A DNA stretch of 25,024 bases from a virus: the IMG/VR virus record IMGVR_UViG_3300028196_000081, positions 1 through 25,024 of that record; one strand, given 5' to 3'. Made by a program: the position numbers and the translations under genes. Below the pieces are notes generated by a model, which searched no databases, was not told the origin of the DNA, and saw nothing but the letters and a program-made list of their open reading frames with translations. This document shows, piece by piece, positions 16,461-23,830 of the stretch; the stretch's first letter is position 1; every line of letters begins with the position of its first letter.

Positions 16461-17177
16461 TTAGTTTAAAAATGCTTTACCAGAAAATTGGTTTATAAAT
16501 GTTATTGTTAAATTATCTATGTCTGTATGATAAACGTCTCCTATTACTTGAGTCCCTGCCGAATCAACAACTGTTACTGATGGGAATTTATTTAACCCAT
16601 GATTTATGCTCCAAGATGCCGACGGCGTCGCTTGTGTAAACACAAAATTCTTATCAGTTGCTGCTAGGTAATCATACTGAAGCAAAGATATTAAATAATT
16701 AGACTCGTTTTCTAAGCTTGAGTTACCAAATACATACGTTAAGTTCATCTGAGTTACTCCAGTAAACTTCTGAGAGGCTGTAGACGCAGTAACATTGTAT
16801 ATACCAAATTTAGAAGGATCTCCAGACTTTTGAATTATGATCCTAGACCCAACAAGGTTTGAATAATATGTACTCAAAGATGTTCCTGCAAGATCTTTAT
16901 TTGATACCAACAATAAGCTAATAGATGAAAAGGCAACTTGTGATGATGTTGGAGGATCAAAACTTATTGTCCCATCTACCCTAGAAGTTCCTGACTTTGG
17001 TTGTTCATCATAAATAAAAGATGAATTACCAGATTCTATTAATCCTTTTTTATTAAAAAAAGAGACTATATCTCCTAACTCATAATTTTTTGTGGTAATT
17101 CCCGCTACATCAGTTCCTATAACTTTATCCCTAACGGAAAGTATCTGATCTATAGCGTAAGTATTTATGCTAGCCAT
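16461..17177 (-). CDS. Tail-fibre-like structural protein with DKVIGTD module
   Basis: This 238-residue protein starts MASINTYAIDQILSVRDKVI and continues GTD...TKN, placing DKVIGTD at residues 17-23, exactly as in the 90-residue protein at 19537-19809. The C-terminal 65 residues (FVFTQATPSASWSINHGLNK then FPSVTVVDS and a final SGKAFLN) match a phage fibre-tip pattern often written W.I.H.L...P.VTVVDS.G. It is probably an adhesin or collar component. It is the first gene downstream of a Bacteroidetes -7 box at 17194-17201, 17 nt before its start, so it likely leads the tail-fibre operon. Confidence 0.72.
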   Translation of the reverse strand: MASINTYAIDQILSVRDKVIGTDVAGITTKNYELGDIVSFFNKKGLIESGNSSFIYDEQPKSGTSRVDGTISFDPPTSSQVAFSSISLLLVSNKDLAGTSLSTYYSNLVGSRIIIQKSGDPSKFGIYNVTASTASQKFTGVTQMNLTYVFGNSSLENESNYLISLLQYDYLAATDKNFVFTQATPSASWSINHGLNKFPSVTVVDSAGTQVIGDVYHTDIDNLTITFINQFSGKAFLN

Positions 17178-18098: not shown

Positions 18099-18416
18099 TT
18101 ATTTTTTTTCTTCTCTCGCTATAGCTTTCAGTACTTCTTCTTTTTTTACAACCAACTTAAAGCTTATATCAGCCGTCCACTGCATAATAGGCCTTCCGTC
18201 TTTGTATAGTATAACTAAGGGAACTGATCTTACCTTTTCTCTAAACTTAGGTGTTTGATTCTCTAGGTAAGCGATTTGATGAGGTATGTTTCTTATTCTA
18301 TCTACTTTAGCTTTATTTGACCAATTCCACTCCGAATTAATTTCCAATAAAACATATTCCTGGGAAAACAATGAGCTAGAAAAAAGAATTAATAATATAA
18401 CTATTGCTTTTTTCAT
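18099..18416 (-). CDS. Secreted thioredoxin-like protein without CXXC
   Basis: This 105-residue protein has a clear signal peptide: KK, a hydrophobic core (AIVILLILFSSSLF) and a likely cleavage after SQ or SLFSQ near residue 19. The mature part has a thioredoxin-like strand/helix order: YVLLEINSEWNWSN, a helix ending QIAYLENQTPKF, then KVRSVPLVILYKDGRPIMQW with the cis-Pro (SVP) and edge strand, and a final helix EEVLKAIARE. The active-site CXXC is absent, and the WNW stretch takes its place. It would act in the periplasm or be surface-tethered. Related genes beside lysis genes occur in marine Bacteroidetes phages (from memory). The role is unknown; redox activity is unlikely, and a structural or binding role fits better. 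Confidence 0.68.
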   Translation of the reverse strand: MKKAIVILLILFSSSLFSQEYVLLEINSEWNWSNKAKVDRIRNIPHQIAYLENQTPKFREKVRSVPLVILYKDGRPIMQWTADISFKLVVKKEEVLKAIAREEKK

Positions 18417-18732: not shown

Positions 18733-18981
18733 TTATTTCTTTTTTCCACCACCCCTGGCTCTGTTACTCTTTTGTTTTTCTAAAACTAATCTACCTTTTT
18801 TGTGAGAGCAATCTAATTTATCTCCTTTTTTAGAATTTTTATTTTTTTTATTAAATAAATTACATTGCACTCTTTTGCGAACAGCGTCTTTTTTCTTTTG
18901 AGCCTTCGCGCTAGTTTTCCTATGCTTTATTCTGGCTTTAGGATTTTTCCTATAGTATTTAGCTGTTCTACTTAGAGGCAT
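18733..18981 (-). CDS. Small basic phage protein (SRTAKYY...RKNP family)
   Basis: This 82-residue, very Lys/Arg-rich protein starts MPLSRTAKYYRKNPKARIKH and carries RVQCNLFNKKNKN, DKLDCSHKKGRLV and SNRARGGGKKK. I recognise the SRTAKYY.KNP...SH..G.....K..NR pattern as a family recurring in cyanophages, pelagiphages and other marine phages. It has two cysteines (C40, C58) and two histidines (H20, H60), which could form a metal site. DNA or RNA binding, perhaps in the virion, is the most natural guess for such a charged protein. It overlaps the previous small gene by 14 nt. The function is unknown. Confidence 0.7.
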   Translation of the reverse strand: MPLSRTAKYYRKNPKARIKHRKTSAKAQKKKDAVRKRVQCNLFNKKNKNSKKGDKLDCSHKKGRLVLEKQKSNRARGGGKKK

Positions 18982-19132
18982 TGTTATATGGAAATAATTT
19001 GTTCAACTTTTCTTGTCTACTCTGACATCCGCAAGATTTATTCATTTTCTTAGCGGCTGCATCAACTACAGACCTTATGCCTGTAGCTTTTGTTACTTTA
19101 GCGATTGAATCACCTAACCCTCTTGATTTCAT
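18968..19132 (-). CDS. Small phage protein with GLGDSIAKVTKATGI and CGC motif
   Basis: This 54-residue gene is easily missed because of its length. It begins MKSRGLGDSIAKVTKATGI, then an Ala/Lys helix, KSCGCQSRQEKLNKLFPY and a short tail. I recognise the SRGLGD.I.K.TKATGI...CGC..R.E.LNKLFPY pattern as conserved in many marine and Bacteroidetes phages, usually in clusters of small genes. C34 and C36 form a C-x-C pair. It begins 6 nt after the 46-residue gene and overlaps the next by 14 nt. The function is unknown. Confidence 0.75.
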   Translation of the reverse strand: MKSRGLGDSIAKVTKATGIRSVVDAAAKKMNKSCGCQSRQEKLNKLFPYNNASK

Positions 19133-19138
19133 AATGTT

Positions 19139-19279
19139 TTATTTTTTACATGTACATAACTTGTTCGGGCAGCTTTCTATTCTAAACATTGCCTTCGAAA
19201 CCAACCAGTTCCACCAACATTGAAAAGCACACCAAATTTTTTGAATTTTTAAACCCACTTTTACTAAAAATTTTCCCAT
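19139..19279 (-). CDS. Tiny Trp/Cys-rich protein
   Basis: This 46-residue ORF fills the space between two small conserved genes, with 3-nt and 6-nt gaps. The sequence is MGKFLVKVGLKIQKIWCAFQ, then CWWNWLVSKAMF, then RIESCPNKLCTCKK. It has five cysteines, four tryptophans and an amphipathic or hydrophobic helix. The CPNKLCTCKK end resembles a metal-binding knuckle. A membrane-surface or metal-binding role is possible. Support comes from gapless fit, ATG start and the lack of any competing gene; no homologue is recognised with certainty. Confidence 0.6.
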   Translation of the reverse strand: MGKFLVKVGLKIQKIWCAFQCWWNWLVSKAMFRIESCPNKLCTCKK

Positions 19280-19282
19280 AAT

Positions 19283-19537
19283 CTATTTTCTTGATTTAGC
19301 TCCTACACACTTCCATCTTTTACGAGATAAGTTGTTTGGTGTGTTTGGATCATTTTGTTTTTTCTTTGAAAGACGTCTTTTTATTCCTAAACTTCTAGCG
19401 CAATAACTATCGCCTTTAGATGTTCCTGGCTTTACTCTTGGGCCGCCTCCTTTAGCTTTACCCGCTTGTCCGTAACTCACCCTTTTTCCTGATGCAGTTA
19501 CTTTTACCTTTGCTTTTCCTTTTCTTGGTTTTGCCAT
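19283..19537 (-). CDS. Small basic phage protein (GDSYCARS...WKC family)
   Basis: This 84-residue protein has a basic Gly-rich first half (MAKPRKGKAKVKVTASGKRV...) and the conserved second half KGDSYCARSLGIKRR, DPNTPNNLSRKRWKCVG. The GDSYCAR...DPN.PN.LSRK.W.C arrangement is a family I know from marine phages, including cyanophages and pelagiphages. C46 and C77 flank the DPN stretch and could form a disulfide or metal site. The predicted charge is strongly positive, so nucleic-acid binding or packing in the virion is plausible. It overlaps the previous gene by one base (TAATG). Confidence 0.75.
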   Translation of the reverse strand: MAKPRKGKAKVKVTASGKRVSYGQAGKAKGGGPRVKPGTSKGDSYCARSLGIKRRLSKKKQNDPNTPNNLSRKRWKCVGAKSRK

Positions 19538-19809
19538 TATGAGTATCTTATGAATAGTTGACCAGAATTTTGATACACTCCACCAACAGGAACTCCGTTG
19601 TCTGCTGCATCTTGATTAGATGATGCATCTACTAGCCCTGTTAGTATAATTGGATGCGCTAGTGTTTGAGCTGAAACATATGTCGTGAGAGAAGAAACTG
19701 TAAAGTTTTTTGTTTTGCCTTGATCGGCTCCTGTAGTACCATCTGTTCCAATTACTTTATCTAATGGATCTATGGTTGCATCACTTGTATAACTGCTTAT
19801 ATTTGCCAT
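19537..19809 (-). CDS. Small structural protein with DKVIGTD module
   Basis: This 90-residue protein starts MANISSYTSDATIDPLDKVI and has DKVIGTD at residues 17-23 and TKNFTVSSL at 33-41. These match the N-terminus of the 238-residue fibre at 16461-17177 at identical positions. The C-terminus GVPVGGVYQNSGQLFIRYS resembles a phage structural signature (GVPVGGLY..SG...R). Unlike its neighbours it is neutral/acidic and lacks cysteine. It is probably a minor virion or fibre-attachment protein, since the shared module suggests docking to the same partner. It is placed inside the basic-protein chain, overlapping the following gene by one base. Confidence 0.68.
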   Translation of the reverse strand: MANISSYTSDATIDPLDKVIGTDGTTGADQGKTKNFTVSSLTTYVSAQTLAHPIILTGLVDASSNQDAADNGVPVGGVYQNSGQLFIRYS

Positions 19810-19840
19810 AATTATCTTTTTGTATATTTTTTTGTAACCG

Positions 19841-20197
19841 TTACAATGCTTTTTTATTAAAATTGTTTTGCTGATTATTAAGTCTTTTTGTTGCTCGATT
19901 AAATATTCTTGTTGCTCGATTAGGATTCTTGATAGTTCTTATACTCCCCTTTGGATTCGAAGAACTATTCCTTGCTATCTTCAAACTTCCGTCATCCTGT
20001 AACGTGTACGACTTTCTTTTTATCTTCGCTCCCTTTACTGTTTTTTTAGATATACGAGTACTGCTTTCAATAGTAGAGTGGCTGCTTCTTTTCACTTTGT
20101 TATTGTTCACCCTATTTACTGAAGCAGTAGTTACTATTGCTTTTTTTCCTGCCTTGCAATCCATCAAAGCCTTTCCTAATAATCCCTTACAACTCAT
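19841..20197 (-). CDS. Basic protein with N-terminal Cys pair
   Basis: This 118-residue protein starts MSCKGLLGKALMDCKAGKKA with cysteines at 3 and 14 and none elsewhere. The rest is rich in Lys, Arg, Ser and Asn (RATRIFNRATKRLNNQQNNF near the end), with a central RKSYTLQDDGSLKI hairpin-like segment. It has no membrane segment. It overlaps the preceding gene by 4 nt (ATGA). The family is not recognised; charge and context suggest nucleic-acid contact or a virion-internal role. Confidence 0.65.
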   Translation of the reverse strand: MSCKGLLGKALMDCKAGKKAIVTTASVNRVNNNKVKRSSHSTIESSTRISKKTVKGAKIKRKSYTLQDDGSLKIARNSSSNPKGSIRTIKNPNRATRIFNRATKRLNNQQNNFNKKAL

Positions 20198-20448
20198 CTC
20201 TTAGTATATTTTTTAGTTACTCTTCCTTTTTTTGTATTAGCAACTACTGTTTTTCCTTTTGCTCCAGCTCTTTTCTTTTTCTTAGCAGTCTTTGCTCTTT
20301 CAGCTTTAGTCATGCTTTTGGCTTTAGCTAATGGCAAACATCTATCTGGATTCTTTTTATTCTTACTAGTACCACAAGCTCCTTTAATAGAGCCATCAGT
20401 TCCAATACGAACCCACTTTTCATCACGCCATTTTTTTAGCTCACCCAT
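20194..20448 (-). CDS. DUF5872-like small basic protein
   Basis: This 84-residue protein starts MGELKKWRDEKWVRIGTDGS, then KGACGTSKNKKNPDRCLPLA, and a Lys/Arg/Ala-rich tail with AKSMTKAERAKTAKKKKRAG. The arrangement KKW..E.WV.I...G....CG.S.......RC.P..KA..MTK resembles the DUF5872 family found in phages and large viruses. Cysteines C25 and C37 are the only two. The family function is unknown; a structural or DNA-binding role in virions is plausible from charge. It shares one base with the upstream gene (TAATG). Confidence 0.72.
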   Translation of the reverse strand: MGELKKWRDEKWVRIGTDGSIKGACGTSKNKKNPDRCLPLAKAKSMTKAERAKTAKKKKRAGAKGKTVVANTKKGRVTKKYTKR

Positions 20449-20615
20449 TACTTTTTCTTTTTTGCTCCTTTTGCATAATTAGGATCCTTACAATACTTGC
20501 TAGCAGCCATATTTGCATATGCTGAAGGATATGTATCGAAAGTTCTTTTTGCCCACGCTATACCCGCTGAACAAATTTTATTCCCTTTCTTTTTTTTCTG
20601 CCTTTTACTTGCCAT
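20448..20615 (-). CDS. Small basic protein with FDTYPSAYANMAASKYC motif
   Basis: This 55-residue gene is short but clear. The protein runs MASKRQKKKKGNKICSAGIA, WAKRTFDTYPSAYANMAASK, YCKDPNYAKGAKKKK. The IC..GIAWAKR.FD.YPSAYAN..ASKYCKDPNY pattern is a marine-phage small-protein family I recognise. It has exactly two cysteines (C15, C42) and basic ends. It shares one base with the DUF5872-like gene (TAATG) and starts inside the end of the 30-residue ORF. The function is unknown. Confidence 0.72.
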   Translation of the reverse strand: MASKRQKKKKGNKICSAGIAWAKRTFDTYPSAYANMAASKYCKDPNYAKGAKKKK

Positions 20616-20697
20616 ATCCTTTTTTCTTCACCTTTGTTTTTTTCTTCTTTTTCTTGTTAAGCATTTTTTTTGCTTCGGATTTTTTTGCGTAAGGCAT
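20605..20697 (-). CDS. 30-residue lysine-rich peptide
   Basis: This is the first ORF after the -7 box at 20721-20728. It runs MPYAKKSEAKKMLN, then a run of six lysines, TKVKKKGYGK and stop, and is over half lysine. It overlaps the next gene by 11 nt. The MPYAKKSEAKKML start looks like a real phage peptide rather than noise, but with only 30 residues it remains uncertain. It could be a tiny nucleic-acid-binding protein or a translation leader for the chain. Confidence 0.5.
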   Translation of the reverse strand: MPYAKKSEAKKMLNKKKKKKTKVKKKGYGK

Positions 20698-20760: not shown

Positions 20761-21258
20761 ATGAAAGAGACTCAAATCAAATCATACATAAGAGGTTCCA
20801 ATAAAACAGTTAAAACACAGCCTAGAAAGAGAGAACATAACTTTCTAAAGTATTGGAGAATAGTAAGATACTATATAAAAAGAAAATATGAAATTTCTTT
20901 AATGGAGCTAGATATGCTCCTTTACTTGTATGATATGCCTTTTTTTAAAAAGGAAGATTTCAACTACTATGGAAATACCTTATCGTGGGATAAGAAAAGA
21001 TTTTACGAGATGATTTCCAAGGGGTTGATAAAAGAATGGAGACCTGGAAAAGAAAAATATGGTAGATCAAAGATTTATGAACTTACCCATCAAGGAAAGA
21101 CAATCTGTTCCTTAACTTATAAAAAACTTCTACAAGAAGAGCCTATATCAGAAGACCCTAGATCAAATCCTTTATATAAGAATGAAAACTACATGGATAA
21201 AATATATAAAAGGGTTATTAGTAAAATGAATTCTAAATCTTCTTCTGATAACGAATAA
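20761..21258 (+). CDS. Winged-helix protein, the only clear rightward gene
   Basis: This 165-residue protein has a basic N-terminus and a winged helix-turn-helix-like core, from about FLKYWRIVRYYIKRKYEIS through MELDMLLYLYDMPFF, DKKRFYEMISKGLIKEWRPG and a wing ending KIYELTHQGKTICS. The order of helices plus a Gly-containing wing resembles MarR/PadR-type regulators. The C-terminus has ISEDPRSNPLYKNENYMDKI. I recall homologues in marine phages, with no known function. It is transcribed opposite to everything around it and its end overlaps the end of the leftward gene at 21233 by 26 nt, a convergent arrangement. DNA-binding regulation of the small-protein promoter next to it is an attractive guess. 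Confidence 0.75.
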   Translation: MKETQIKSYIRGSNKTVKTQPRKREHNFLKYWRIVRYYIKRKYEISLMELDMLLYLYDMPFFKKEDFNYYGNTLSWDKKRFYEMISKGLIKEWRPGKEKYGRSKIYELTHQGKTICSLTYKKLLQEEPISEDPRSNPLYKNENYMDKIYKRVISKMNSKSSSDNE

Positions 21259-21979
21259 CTGCTTTTTTTAGTAGTGAGTAGTTCCTTATAGATGTAATTT
21301 TCTTTAAACTTCTCATTTTCAGTTTATCACCACCCTCAGTTAAAACATCGATAGCCTCTATAGCTTTAGCCATATCGTTTTCTTGCTTTATTTCAAGATT
21401 CAATGACTTAAACTGATCAAGCTTGTCTTGATCGAAATACCACCTGACCAGGTGTCGAGTTTTATTTAATTTATTTGCAACTTTACTGATTGTTATTTTA
21501 TCCTTGTCTAACCAAAGCTCTTCTATAACCGAATCTATGTCATCAGTGCTTGGTCTGTTTCTTCTCCCTATTACAGCTCCAACTATCTTCATTTTTGTTT
21601 TTCTATCCATCATTTTAGATGGATTAAATATAATTTTTCTTTTTCTAGCGCAATACGGAAGTTTTCTTTTAGAAAACACTCTATCTATCATATTTTCAAC
21701 CCTGTCTTGACTATAAGTTCTTATTATGTGTCCAGAACCCCTATCAGATAGACCTACAAAAAGAAGTTTCATTTTATCTATGTCAAATTCTGGGTTGAGG
21801 TGTATAAACTTTTCAGCAATATACTCTAGTTCAGAAAATGTGTTTATTTTCCTAGTTGTTCGGTAAAGGGTGTAGAAATTACACCCGTTCGGGAAATGAA
21901 GGTAATCCTTACCCTTGAATACAAAAGAGGACTCCATAATGATTCTATATGCGTTGTAATTAAATAATGGAATCAGCAT
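21233..21979 (-). CDS. Helix-turn-helix protein downstream of groES
   Basis: This protein is up to 248 residues. A probable HTH lies near the middle, in KITISKVANKLNKTRHLVRW (about residues 161-180), preceded by KIIFNPSKMMDRKTKMKIVG, a pattern I associate with small phage proteins containing regulator-like HTH domains. The rest is Lys/Arg-rich. The listed ATG overlaps groES by 20 nt. The next ATG, at 21937 (MESSFVFKGK...), avoids the overlap and may be the true start, giving 234 residues. A role as transcription regulator or replication-related DNA-binding protein is inference. It ends against the convergent rightward gene. Confidence 0.65.
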   Translation of the reverse strand: MLIPLFNYNAYRIIMESSFVFKGKDYLHFPNGCNFYTLYRTTRKINTFSELEYIAEKFIHLNPEFDIDKMKLLFVGLSDRGSGHIIRTYSQDRVENMIDRVFSKRKLPYCARKRKIIFNPSKMMDRKTKMKIVGAVIGRRNRPSTDDIDSVIEELWLDKDKITISKVANKLNKTRHLVRWYFDQDKLDQFKSLNLEIKQENDMAKAIEAIDVLTEGGDKLKMRSLKKITSIRNYSLLKKAVIRYQKKI

Positions 21980-22238
21980 TATCTAAAATAACAACCACAT
22001 CTCTCTCTCTTATGGCTTTTAGCTTTGTTCCGTTTACCCTTAGACTTGATCCAGCAATTTTATCAAAGTAAACTTTTCCACCTACTTCAACCTCCTTAAC
22101 GTCTGCGCCTACACTAATAACTTCCCCTATGATGTATCTAATGTTATTATCGGACTCTTCTGTTATTATTAGACCTAAATCATTCTTCTGAATAACTTCT
22201 TCGTCTTTTACTATGATGTAACTTCCTACTGCTTTCAT
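21960..22238 (-). CDS. groES: Co-chaperonin GroES (phage-encoded)
   Basis: This 92-residue protein fits the Cpn10 fold: SYIIVKDEEVIQKNDLGLII with the mobile loop carrying a GLIIT variant of the IVL motif (22-26), IGEVISVGADVKEVEVGGKV (37-56), and KLKAIRERDVVVIL at the end. Seven such subunits would cap the chaperonin cage. The turn between VISVG and VGGKVYF is short, so the roof hairpin of bacterial GroES appears reduced, as in phage T4 gp31. The gene overlaps groEL by 4 nt (ATGA), in the order groEL then groES, the reverse of most bacterial operons. It is probably paired with the phage GroEL to fold virion proteins. Confidence 0.9.
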   Translation of the reverse strand: MKAVGSYIIVKDEEVIQKNDLGLIITEESDNNIRYIIGEVISVGADVKEVEVGGKVYFDKIAGSSLRVNGTKLKAIRERDVVVILDNADSII

Positions 22239-23830
22239 TTTTTTGCTATTCTTTTGTTAGAAATTACACAAGATGTGGTTAAAATAGTAGAAGCTACAGA
22301 TGCTGAGTTTAAAACAGCGTTTTTTGTCACTTTTAACGGATCGACTATACCAAAAGTGAACATATTCCCAAATTGTTTGTTTTTTACATCAAATCCTTGC
22401 TTTGGTTTTCTGTTTTGCATCAATTTAGTCTCTTCTACGGTTAATTCTTGACCAGAGTTTGATATAATTTTGTTCCAAACGTCAGGAATTGAGTTAACCA
22501 TCATTTTATACCCCATATTAAAAGAACTAGAACTGCTTCGATGAGGTTTCGAGGCGATTTTTGCGTGAACGTCAAGAAGTGCAACACCTCCACCAGCAAC
22601 TACACCCTCTTCTAAGGCTGCTTTAGTTGCGTGGATGGAGTCATCCACCCTGTCCTTCTTCTCTTTTAGCTCTATTTCGGAATTTCCTGCTAATTTTATT
22701 GTGGCAACTCCACCAGAAAGCTTCGATAATCTATCTTTTAGGTGATATTTTACGTTTCTATTTGATGTTTTTTCTATTTCTTCTTTTAAATAAGAAATAA
22801 CCTCTTTTTTCTTGGTGTTTTCTTCGTCTTTTTCAAAAACTAAGATAGTTTCGTTACTGTTAGACACCATACTAGCACAAGTTCCAAGATAACTTTTGTC
22901 GATATTCTCTTTTGAGTCTCCAGAAAGCTCAGAAATCATTCTCGCGCCAGTCATCATACACAAATCTTCTAATAATTCAAATTTACTGATACCTACACCT
23001 TCGGGATGTATGAAATTACAGGTTAAATTCTTTTTATTTATGTTTTGAGCCACAAAAAGCTTGACTCTGTCATCTAGTTCAGAAACAATAAGTAGAGGTC
23101 TTTTTTGTTTTATGGATTGTTCAAAGGCAAAATGCAATCTTTCATGCATATCTATCTTTGTGTCGCTTATCACAATTAAAGGATTTTGATACTCAACAGA
23201 CTTTGACCTTAAATTATTAATGCTAAACGGAGTACCATACCCTCGTTTAATTCGAGTTCCATTAGTTATCTCTGTGTGATCTATTCCAGATAAAGAATCT
23301 TCCATATTAACTATTCCGTCTTTACCAACCTCTTCATATGCATTTGAAACTAGCTCACCAATGTAAGAATCCCCGTTGGCTGAAATTGTAGAGACTTGAA
23401 GTAATGTTTTTTTATTTACAGATTTACTGCTTTTTTCCAGTAGTTTAACTATGTCTTTAGCAGCGGCCTCAATACCTTCTTTTGCTTGAGTTACATTTTC
23501 GATATCATCTATATTGTCAAAACACCTATTTATGATAGCACGAGCCAGGACACATGAAGTCGTTGTTCCGTCTCCAGCTTCACTTGCTGTTTTTTGCGAT
23601 GCTTGTTTTAAAATACTACAACCTAAGTTTTCTATTGGATCTGAAAGTATAATACTATTAGCAACAGTAACCCCATCTTTGGTAATATGTGGATTTCCGT
23701 ACTCATCCTCTATTATAACTGTTTTACCAGAAGCACCTAGCGTTGAAGACACAGCTTCAGCAAGGATGTCAATCCCTTTTTTAAGTTTTTTACGACCCTC
23801 GCCATCAAAAACTATCTCTTTTTCTATCAT
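22235..23830 (-). CDS. groEL: Chaperonin GroEL (phage-encoded)
   Basis: This 531-residue protein is a full-length Cpn60, slightly shorter than E. coli GroEL (548). Conserved parts are the ATP-site region STLGASGKTVIIEDEYGNPH-ITKDGVTVA (29-57), AGDGTTT with D87 (85-91), RVDDSIHATKAALEEGVVAG-GGVALLD with the ATPase Asp at 397, and the GIVNMEDSLSG segment. The apical domain keeps PLLIVSEL and HPEGVGISKFELLEDLC but differs from host GroEL in the substrate-binding helices. The C-terminus ends KRIAKK without the GGM repeat tail. Phage GroELs are known from EL-type jumbo phages and some marine phages. It is probably used to fold large virion proteins. Upstream are small ORFs and 11-bp repeats. There is an AT-rich leader but no strong SD. 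Confidence 0.96.
   Translation of the reverse strand: MIEKEIVFDGEGRKKLKKGIDILAEAVSSTLGASGKTVIIEDEYGNPHITKDGVTVANSIILSDPIENLGCSILKQASQKTASEAGDGTTTSCVLARAIINRCFDNIDDIENVTQAKEGIEAAAKDIVKLLEKSSKSVNKKTLLQVSTISANGDSYIGELVSNAYEEVGKDGIVNMEDSLSGIDHTEITNGTRIKRGYGTPFSINNLRSKSVEYQNPLIVISDTKIDMHERLHFAFEQSIKQKRPLLIVSELDDRVKLFVAQNINKKNLTCNFIHPEGVGISKFELLEDLCMMTGARMISELSGDSKENIDKSYLGTCASMVSNSNETILVFEKDEENTKKKEVISYLKEEIEKTSNRNVKYHLKDRLSKLSGGVATIKLAGNSEIELKEKKDRVDDSIHATKAALEEGVVAGGGVALLDVHAKIASKPHRSSSSSFNMGYKMMVNSIPDVWNKIISNSGQELTVEETKLMQNRKPKQGFDVKNKQFGNMFTFGIVDPLKVTKNAVLNSASVASTILTTSCVISNKRIAKK

Follow-up and report, generated by a model that had tools for sequence, protein, structure and literature searches.

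In the chlorella virus PBCV-1, several packaged proteins of high isoelectric point were proposed to neutralize the viral DNA, and the same work stated that evidence for a large contribution of basic proteins in phages is lacking (PMC3281028). Proteins with the domains DUF5754 and DUF5872 are listed for a giant virus that infects algae (PMC12085832). Together with DUF6321, these domains are widespread in aquatic phages, with their function unassigned, and we found relatives of DUF6321 in 502 of the searched phage records. In cyanophages, DUF6321 is a C-terminal domain. The family T4-GC119 of T4-like cyanophages (phrog_727 / phrog_3477), whose gene lies between terminase genes and whose products are basic overall, is called hypothetical by Sullivan et al. 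2010 in their main text.

The DNA analyzed here (the window) is a virus contig of 25,024 bases, described as a flavobacterial-type marine phage. Its chain of eight small basic ORFs, with pI values of 9.7–11.6 and net charges of +8 to +28, resembles the basic DNA-binding virion proteins of PBCV-1 in high pI, a likeness of charge and of the packaging idea rather than of compared sequences. Charge was the sole feature seen that points to DNA condensation by the window proteins. Our best explanation, to which we give an even chance, is that these ORFs encode a kit of small, basic, folded modules clasped by cysteines, which would belong to the late virion-associated proteins and contact DNA, most likely within the head or on it.

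The gene chain and its setting

A sequence-only reading had described eight small Lys/Arg-rich ORFs running head to tail with one neutral ORF among them, six of the eight having exactly two cysteines, one having five and one none. We recovered all nine ORFs on the minus strand (20697-18733), and every cysteine position was as described. We refer to the basic ORFs as b1–b4 and b6–b9, and to the neutral one as s5. The first ORF past the divergent intergenic region, b1 (20605..20697, 30 aa), is lysine-rich with a net charge of +14 and has no cysteine; the homologue search detected no family for it, and it may not be a real gene. It is followed by b2 (20448..20615, 55 aa, Cys15/Cys42, phrog_27331) and b3 (20194..20448, 84 aa, Cys25/Cys37, phrog_23735), with the b3 start codon overlapping the b2 stop. 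The next protein, b4 (19841..20197, 118 aa), carries Cys3/Cys14 within a conserved N-terminal motif, MSCKGLxGxALxxCK, and is variable in the rest of its length. Beyond s5 are b6 (19283..19537, 84 aa, Cys46/Cys77 in SYCARS...RWKC, phrog_4689-like), b7 (19139..19279, 46 aa) with cysteines at residues 17, 21, 37, 42, and 44 (WC..FQC...SCP..LCTCK), b8 (18968..19132, 54 aa) with a CGC motif (Cys34/Cys36), and b9 (18733..18981, 82 aa, Cys40/Cys58). The family of b9 (phrog_6437; N..N...GD..D.SH...NRA) also occurs in Elemovirus and cyanopodoviruses.

The neutral s5 (19537..19809, 90 aa) lies outside the set of basic modules and has a fibre-type N-terminal motif, DKVIGTD...TKNF. The start DKVIGTD...TKN. 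is common to s5 and the minus-strand ORF at 16461-17177; it resembles a reusable fibre attachment N-terminus, and related contigs show similar starts.

The terminase of the window phage was closest to that of a podovirus contig from spring water (60.9 kb; 63%), followed by those of Elemovirus (42%) and the Cellulophaga phages phi46:3 and phi38:1. The relatives are podoviruses of ~60 kb whose portal and capsid families are those of that group. A scan for promoters and terminators gave matches, promoter-like ones included, at chance level. Genes for GroEL (Cpn60) and a GroES-like protein (22235-23830 and 21960-22238, both minus strand) lie next to the cluster and are also present in most related loci. 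A lone ORF on the plus strand (20761-21258) separates GroES from the basic cluster; it too is kept in most related loci, and its positional counterpart in MW202828 carries the annotation 'repressor protein'. The minus-strand ORF at 18099-18416, located between the basic cluster and the amidase, has a signal-peptide-like start and then an apparent thioredoxin-type domain with WNWSNK instead of CxxC; its best PDB matches, which were weak, included thioredoxins (E 0.05-1, five-member profile).

Conservation and pairing of the cysteines

At the Cys frequency of neighboring genes (~0.8%), the expected number of basic ORFs with exactly two cysteines was 0.7 of the eight, and six were observed. The probability of six or more such ORFs among eight was ~6e-6 at this frequency and 1.7e-3 at 2% Cys, values that are indicative only because the count was post hoc, made once the pattern had been seen. 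In 80 or more related contigs, exactly two conserved cysteines were found in 6/21 small basic families and in 1/29 small non-basic ones (Fisher P 0.017), with b4 entered by hand as the sixth basic family. A further eleven small basic families in these operons, about half of the small basic families, had no conserved cysteine, so the two-cysteine trait marks a subset and not every basic protein. The two-cysteine observation was confirmed as real and exceeding chance.

Comparison of cysteine conservation among homologues, which the sequence-only reading had proposed as a check, supported most of the pairs and failed for one. Both cysteines were present in 258/261 distinct b3 sequences (relatives were found on at least 80 contigs in one scan), in 105/106 distinct b6 sequences, in all 15 distinct b4 members, and in all 53 distinct b8 sequences (84/84 in a larger set). 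The b2 pair was either retained or swapped jointly: among 236 distinct sequences, 139 had Cys-Cys, 80 Tyr-Tyr, and 3 Trp-Tyr, the switch to aromatic residues being a single event on the tree. The other 14 (12 aligned as -R, two as SQ) carry two cysteines nearby, placed slightly elsewhere or aligned out of register, and in one contig just one cysteine, also displaced, is present. The b7 family includes shortened, Cys-poor variants. The b9 pair is not a family trait, as only 7 of 18 members have two cysteines.

The unconserved b9 pair, like the half of the small basic families that keep no cysteine, would fit an absence of any common theme, in which unrelated lysine-rich proteins have two cysteines by accident. 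Against this stand the near-invariant cysteines of b3, b4, b6, and b8, the joint replacement in b2, and the fusion of three of the modules with one another in cyanophages. We regard an accidental pattern, already disfavored by the conservation and fusion data, as the least probable of the explanations considered.

The clearest view of how the cysteines are coupled came from c2, a four-cysteine, DUF5754-like family that is homologous to b6 (hhalign 97%). The window has no c2 gene, and many relatives carry one in the same operon. Among 131 distinct c2 sequences, 102 had all four cysteines, nine were without the first pair only, three without the second pair only, and 17 without both, while none was missing just one member of a pair. 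Paired cysteines were thus lost only together in c2 (0/131 discordant), as in b2, where the pair is Cys-Cys or aromatic. The 12 sequences that keep one pair show that the four cysteines are not kept or lost together as those of one Cys4 zinc site would be, and the loss two by two fits two independent couples. The tree has ~4 changes per c2 pair, which limits the statistical weight of this pattern. On the simplest reading, the cysteine pairs would be intramolecular couples, most likely disulfides formed after release.

Metal sites had been put forward as another use of the cysteines; zinc or another metal would then be bound within or between chains. Small basic zinc-binding proteins are common, and the CxC of b8 and the five cysteines of b7 could be ligands. 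However, the two c2 pairs were lost independently, each as a unit, Tyr-Tyr or Trp-Tyr stands in for the b2 pair, and no conserved additional set of Cys or His was found beside the pairs of b2, b3, and b4. We therefore consider metal binding very unlikely. Pairwise disulfides, also put forward by the sequence-only reading, fared better: the pairwise coupling is supported by the all-or-none losses in c2 and b2, and we infer the bond itself.

The cytoplasm is reducing, and disulfides would form after release. In the proposed mechanism, most modules would have one cysteine pair whose members face each other, and the pair could form an intramolecular disulfide after the particle exits the reducing cytoplasm, clasping a very small fold. 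The AF2 model of b2 has helices at residues 16–25 and 32–43; Cys15 and Cys42 share one end of them, which would place the pair where the two-helix hairpin is open. The structure models were of medium confidence (pLDDT 71 and 63), and searches by sequence or by fold gave no credible match among solved structures. The CxC spacing of b8 is ill-suited to a hairpin clasp.

Modules shared with DUF5872, DUF6321, and cyanophage proteins

Direct Pfam searches with the window proteins gave no matches, and b2 and b3 had no hit at E<=1. The window b2, b3, and b6 are below the Pfam thresholds and were linked to the DUF families through intermediates, with iterated profiles for b2 and b3. Relatives of b2 matched residues 1-39 of DUF5872 (PF19197) with an E-value of 6e-9, above the cut-off, and relatives of b3 matched residues 51-105 with an E-value of 7e-6, just under it. 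Single ORFs in two viral contigs (L346 and L367) matched DUF5872 in two stretches (E 5e-14 and 3e-14). Judged from these alignments, b2 and b3 are the split halves of DUF5872, with profile residues 1-39 corresponding to the b2 hairpin and ~43-105 to the b3 module. The window differs from the Pfam family in that the two halves, seen through the relatives, are separate overlapping genes rather than one chain, and in that its b2 has Cys-Cys whereas the relatives that match Pfam have Tyr-Tyr or Trp-Tyr. Both genes occurred together in 295 loci, and in 169 of these they were direct neighbors (gap <=20 nt). A search for a cellular home of b2 returned only MAG/SAG contigs, probably of phage origin.

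The window b6 is a divergent, stand-alone member of DUF6321 (PF19846). It had no Pfam hit and did not reach the gathering threshold of that family, its PHROG match had an E-value of 2e-4, and homologues in the b6 profile family scored 46-67 bits. Both of its cysteines are part of a conserved [FY]CAR...W[KN]C core, and members that pass the Pfam cut-off have the same core, [FY]CAR...G[IM]K...W[KN]C, with both cysteines.

T4-GC119 combines the b3, b2, and b6 modules in the cyanophages S-B43 and S-SM2, and the b2 and b6 modules in S-SM1. With profiles built without any cyanophage sequence, b3 was found in S-B43 and S-SM2 with E-values of 7e-7 and 2.5e-6 (hhalign 94-98%) and b6 with E-values of 1e-10 to 1e-13, while b2 was weaker (1e-3 to 6e-3; hhalign 61-95%). 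The modules have the same cysteine pairs as in the window; a plain alignment placed the b3 and b6 cysteines in register with those of the window and the b2 cysteines within a few residues of them. In contrast to the tandem separate genes of the window, T4-GC119 is one polypeptide of 430-708 aa with extra modules (e.g. CWKGY...NRC, DUF192). In the GC119 proteins at 2117-4243 of contig L091 and 2960-4243 of contig L092, we observed further short two-cysteine modules (CWKGYEKKG...NRC), and the DUF192 domain is in S-SM2.

The sequence-only reading had held that the families look unrelated and that their shared pattern may reflect a common purpose. The first claim stands for pairwise sequence comparison, as a profile comparison of all the basic families gave common ancestry only for b6 with c2; it does not stand for b2 and b3, which make up one Pfam domain, or for b3, b2, and b6, which GC119 joins. 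The second claim gained support because b2, b3, and b6 occur as domains of a single cyanophage polypeptide. Fusion of otherwise separate neighbors is strong evidence of joint function; b4, b7, b8, and b9 are linked to the system through neighborhood alone. The small basic modules with cysteine pairs probably have a joint role, for which the virus particle is the most likely place.

In a record of 62,424 b (L197 / G001), we observed a b4 that is 92% identical to the window b4 and no b3, an apparent sign of basic-module shuffling among phages. Another record, of 61,200 b (G010), has two near-identical b3 matches close to its two ends (317-562 and 60118-60369), perhaps through terminal redundancy or a circular assembly overlap. 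Sharing of b4 with a phage that has no b3 would also be expected if the modules were head proteins injected to work on the newly infected host, like the internal proteins of T4, with contact to DNA only incidental. As in accessory injected proteins, the modules are small and basic, they fall into many families, and gene content varies between relatives. Unlike fast-evolving host-directed proteins, b2, b3, and b8 show strong conservation and a very wide distribution, and we consider injection for this purpose improbable.

Association with the virus particle

Under the preferred explanation, the modules would be expressed late, packaged in or on the head and there touch DNA. The sequence-only reading had suggested virion proteins, and this part is supported by homology, with mixed results. 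In the cyanophage S-CREM2, ORF137 was detected by mass spectrometry in CsCl-purified virions with four unique peptides and a coverage of 4.1% (PMC10665884 Table 3); the authors cautioned that CsCl purification may leave abundant non-virion proteins (PMC10665884). We found that ORF137 ends in DUF6321 (Pfam E 3.5e-10), the only one of the modules it contains. In S-SZBM1, the DUF6321 protein SSZBM1_192 is missing from the virion mass-spectrometry table (PMC9146016 Table 1). SSZBM1_190 was considered as a mass-spectrometry-detected DUF6321 protein and rejected, as the domain sits in SSZBM1_192. A literature search for virion proteomics of close relatives of the window phage found nothing, and the accessible passages of the P-SCSP1u cryo-EM paper do not mention the small DUF6321 protein.

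Gene context and fusions also point to the head. The GC119 protein of S-B43 is annotated 'structural protein', the DUF6321 gene of P-SCSP1q directly follows that of the major capsid protein, and those of HTVC023P and DSL-LC04 are near capsid genes. The Aeromonas phage 2L372D has a fusion of the c2 domain with a Peptidase_S78_2/head maturation protease, and the domain is also part of phrog_220, 'minor head protein and DNA pilot'. Because of the S-CREM2 detection, the S-B43 annotation, the head-related context, and the c2 fusion, we favor a location of the basic modules in virion heads with moderate confidence. For the window phage, we infer this location, and contact with DNA, from these homologues and from charge.

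The main rival is a late role without packaging, in which the proteins would stay in the cell and bind phage DNA, RNA, or ribosomes, the reduced cysteine pairs being internal packing contacts of tiny folds. The basic genes head a co-directional transcription unit, before the lysis genes, and SSZBM1_192 went undetected in virions; moreover, since the b2 pair is replaceable by aromatic residues, oxidation is not essential. Such a role is at odds with the presence of S-CREM2 ORF137 in virions, with the c2 domain in a head maturation protease fusion and a minor head protein family, and with the frequent placement of the genes beside capsid or terminase genes. We consider it possible but doubtful.

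These results raise the question of whether tailed phages package basic, cysteine-clasped proteins alongside their DNA. More broadly, it is conceivable, though we think it rather unlikely, that a modular packaging set, basic and redox-clasped, is common to marine tailed phages and to the giant viruses of algae that have these DUFs. The beads of such a phage chromatin would come as separate tiny genes or as a single string; reduced and soft inside the cell, they would be locked by disulfides when the particles reach the sea water. If the modules are interchangeable beads of one system, fused in cyanophages and with at least one fused form in virions, several widespread families of unassigned function would become one question.
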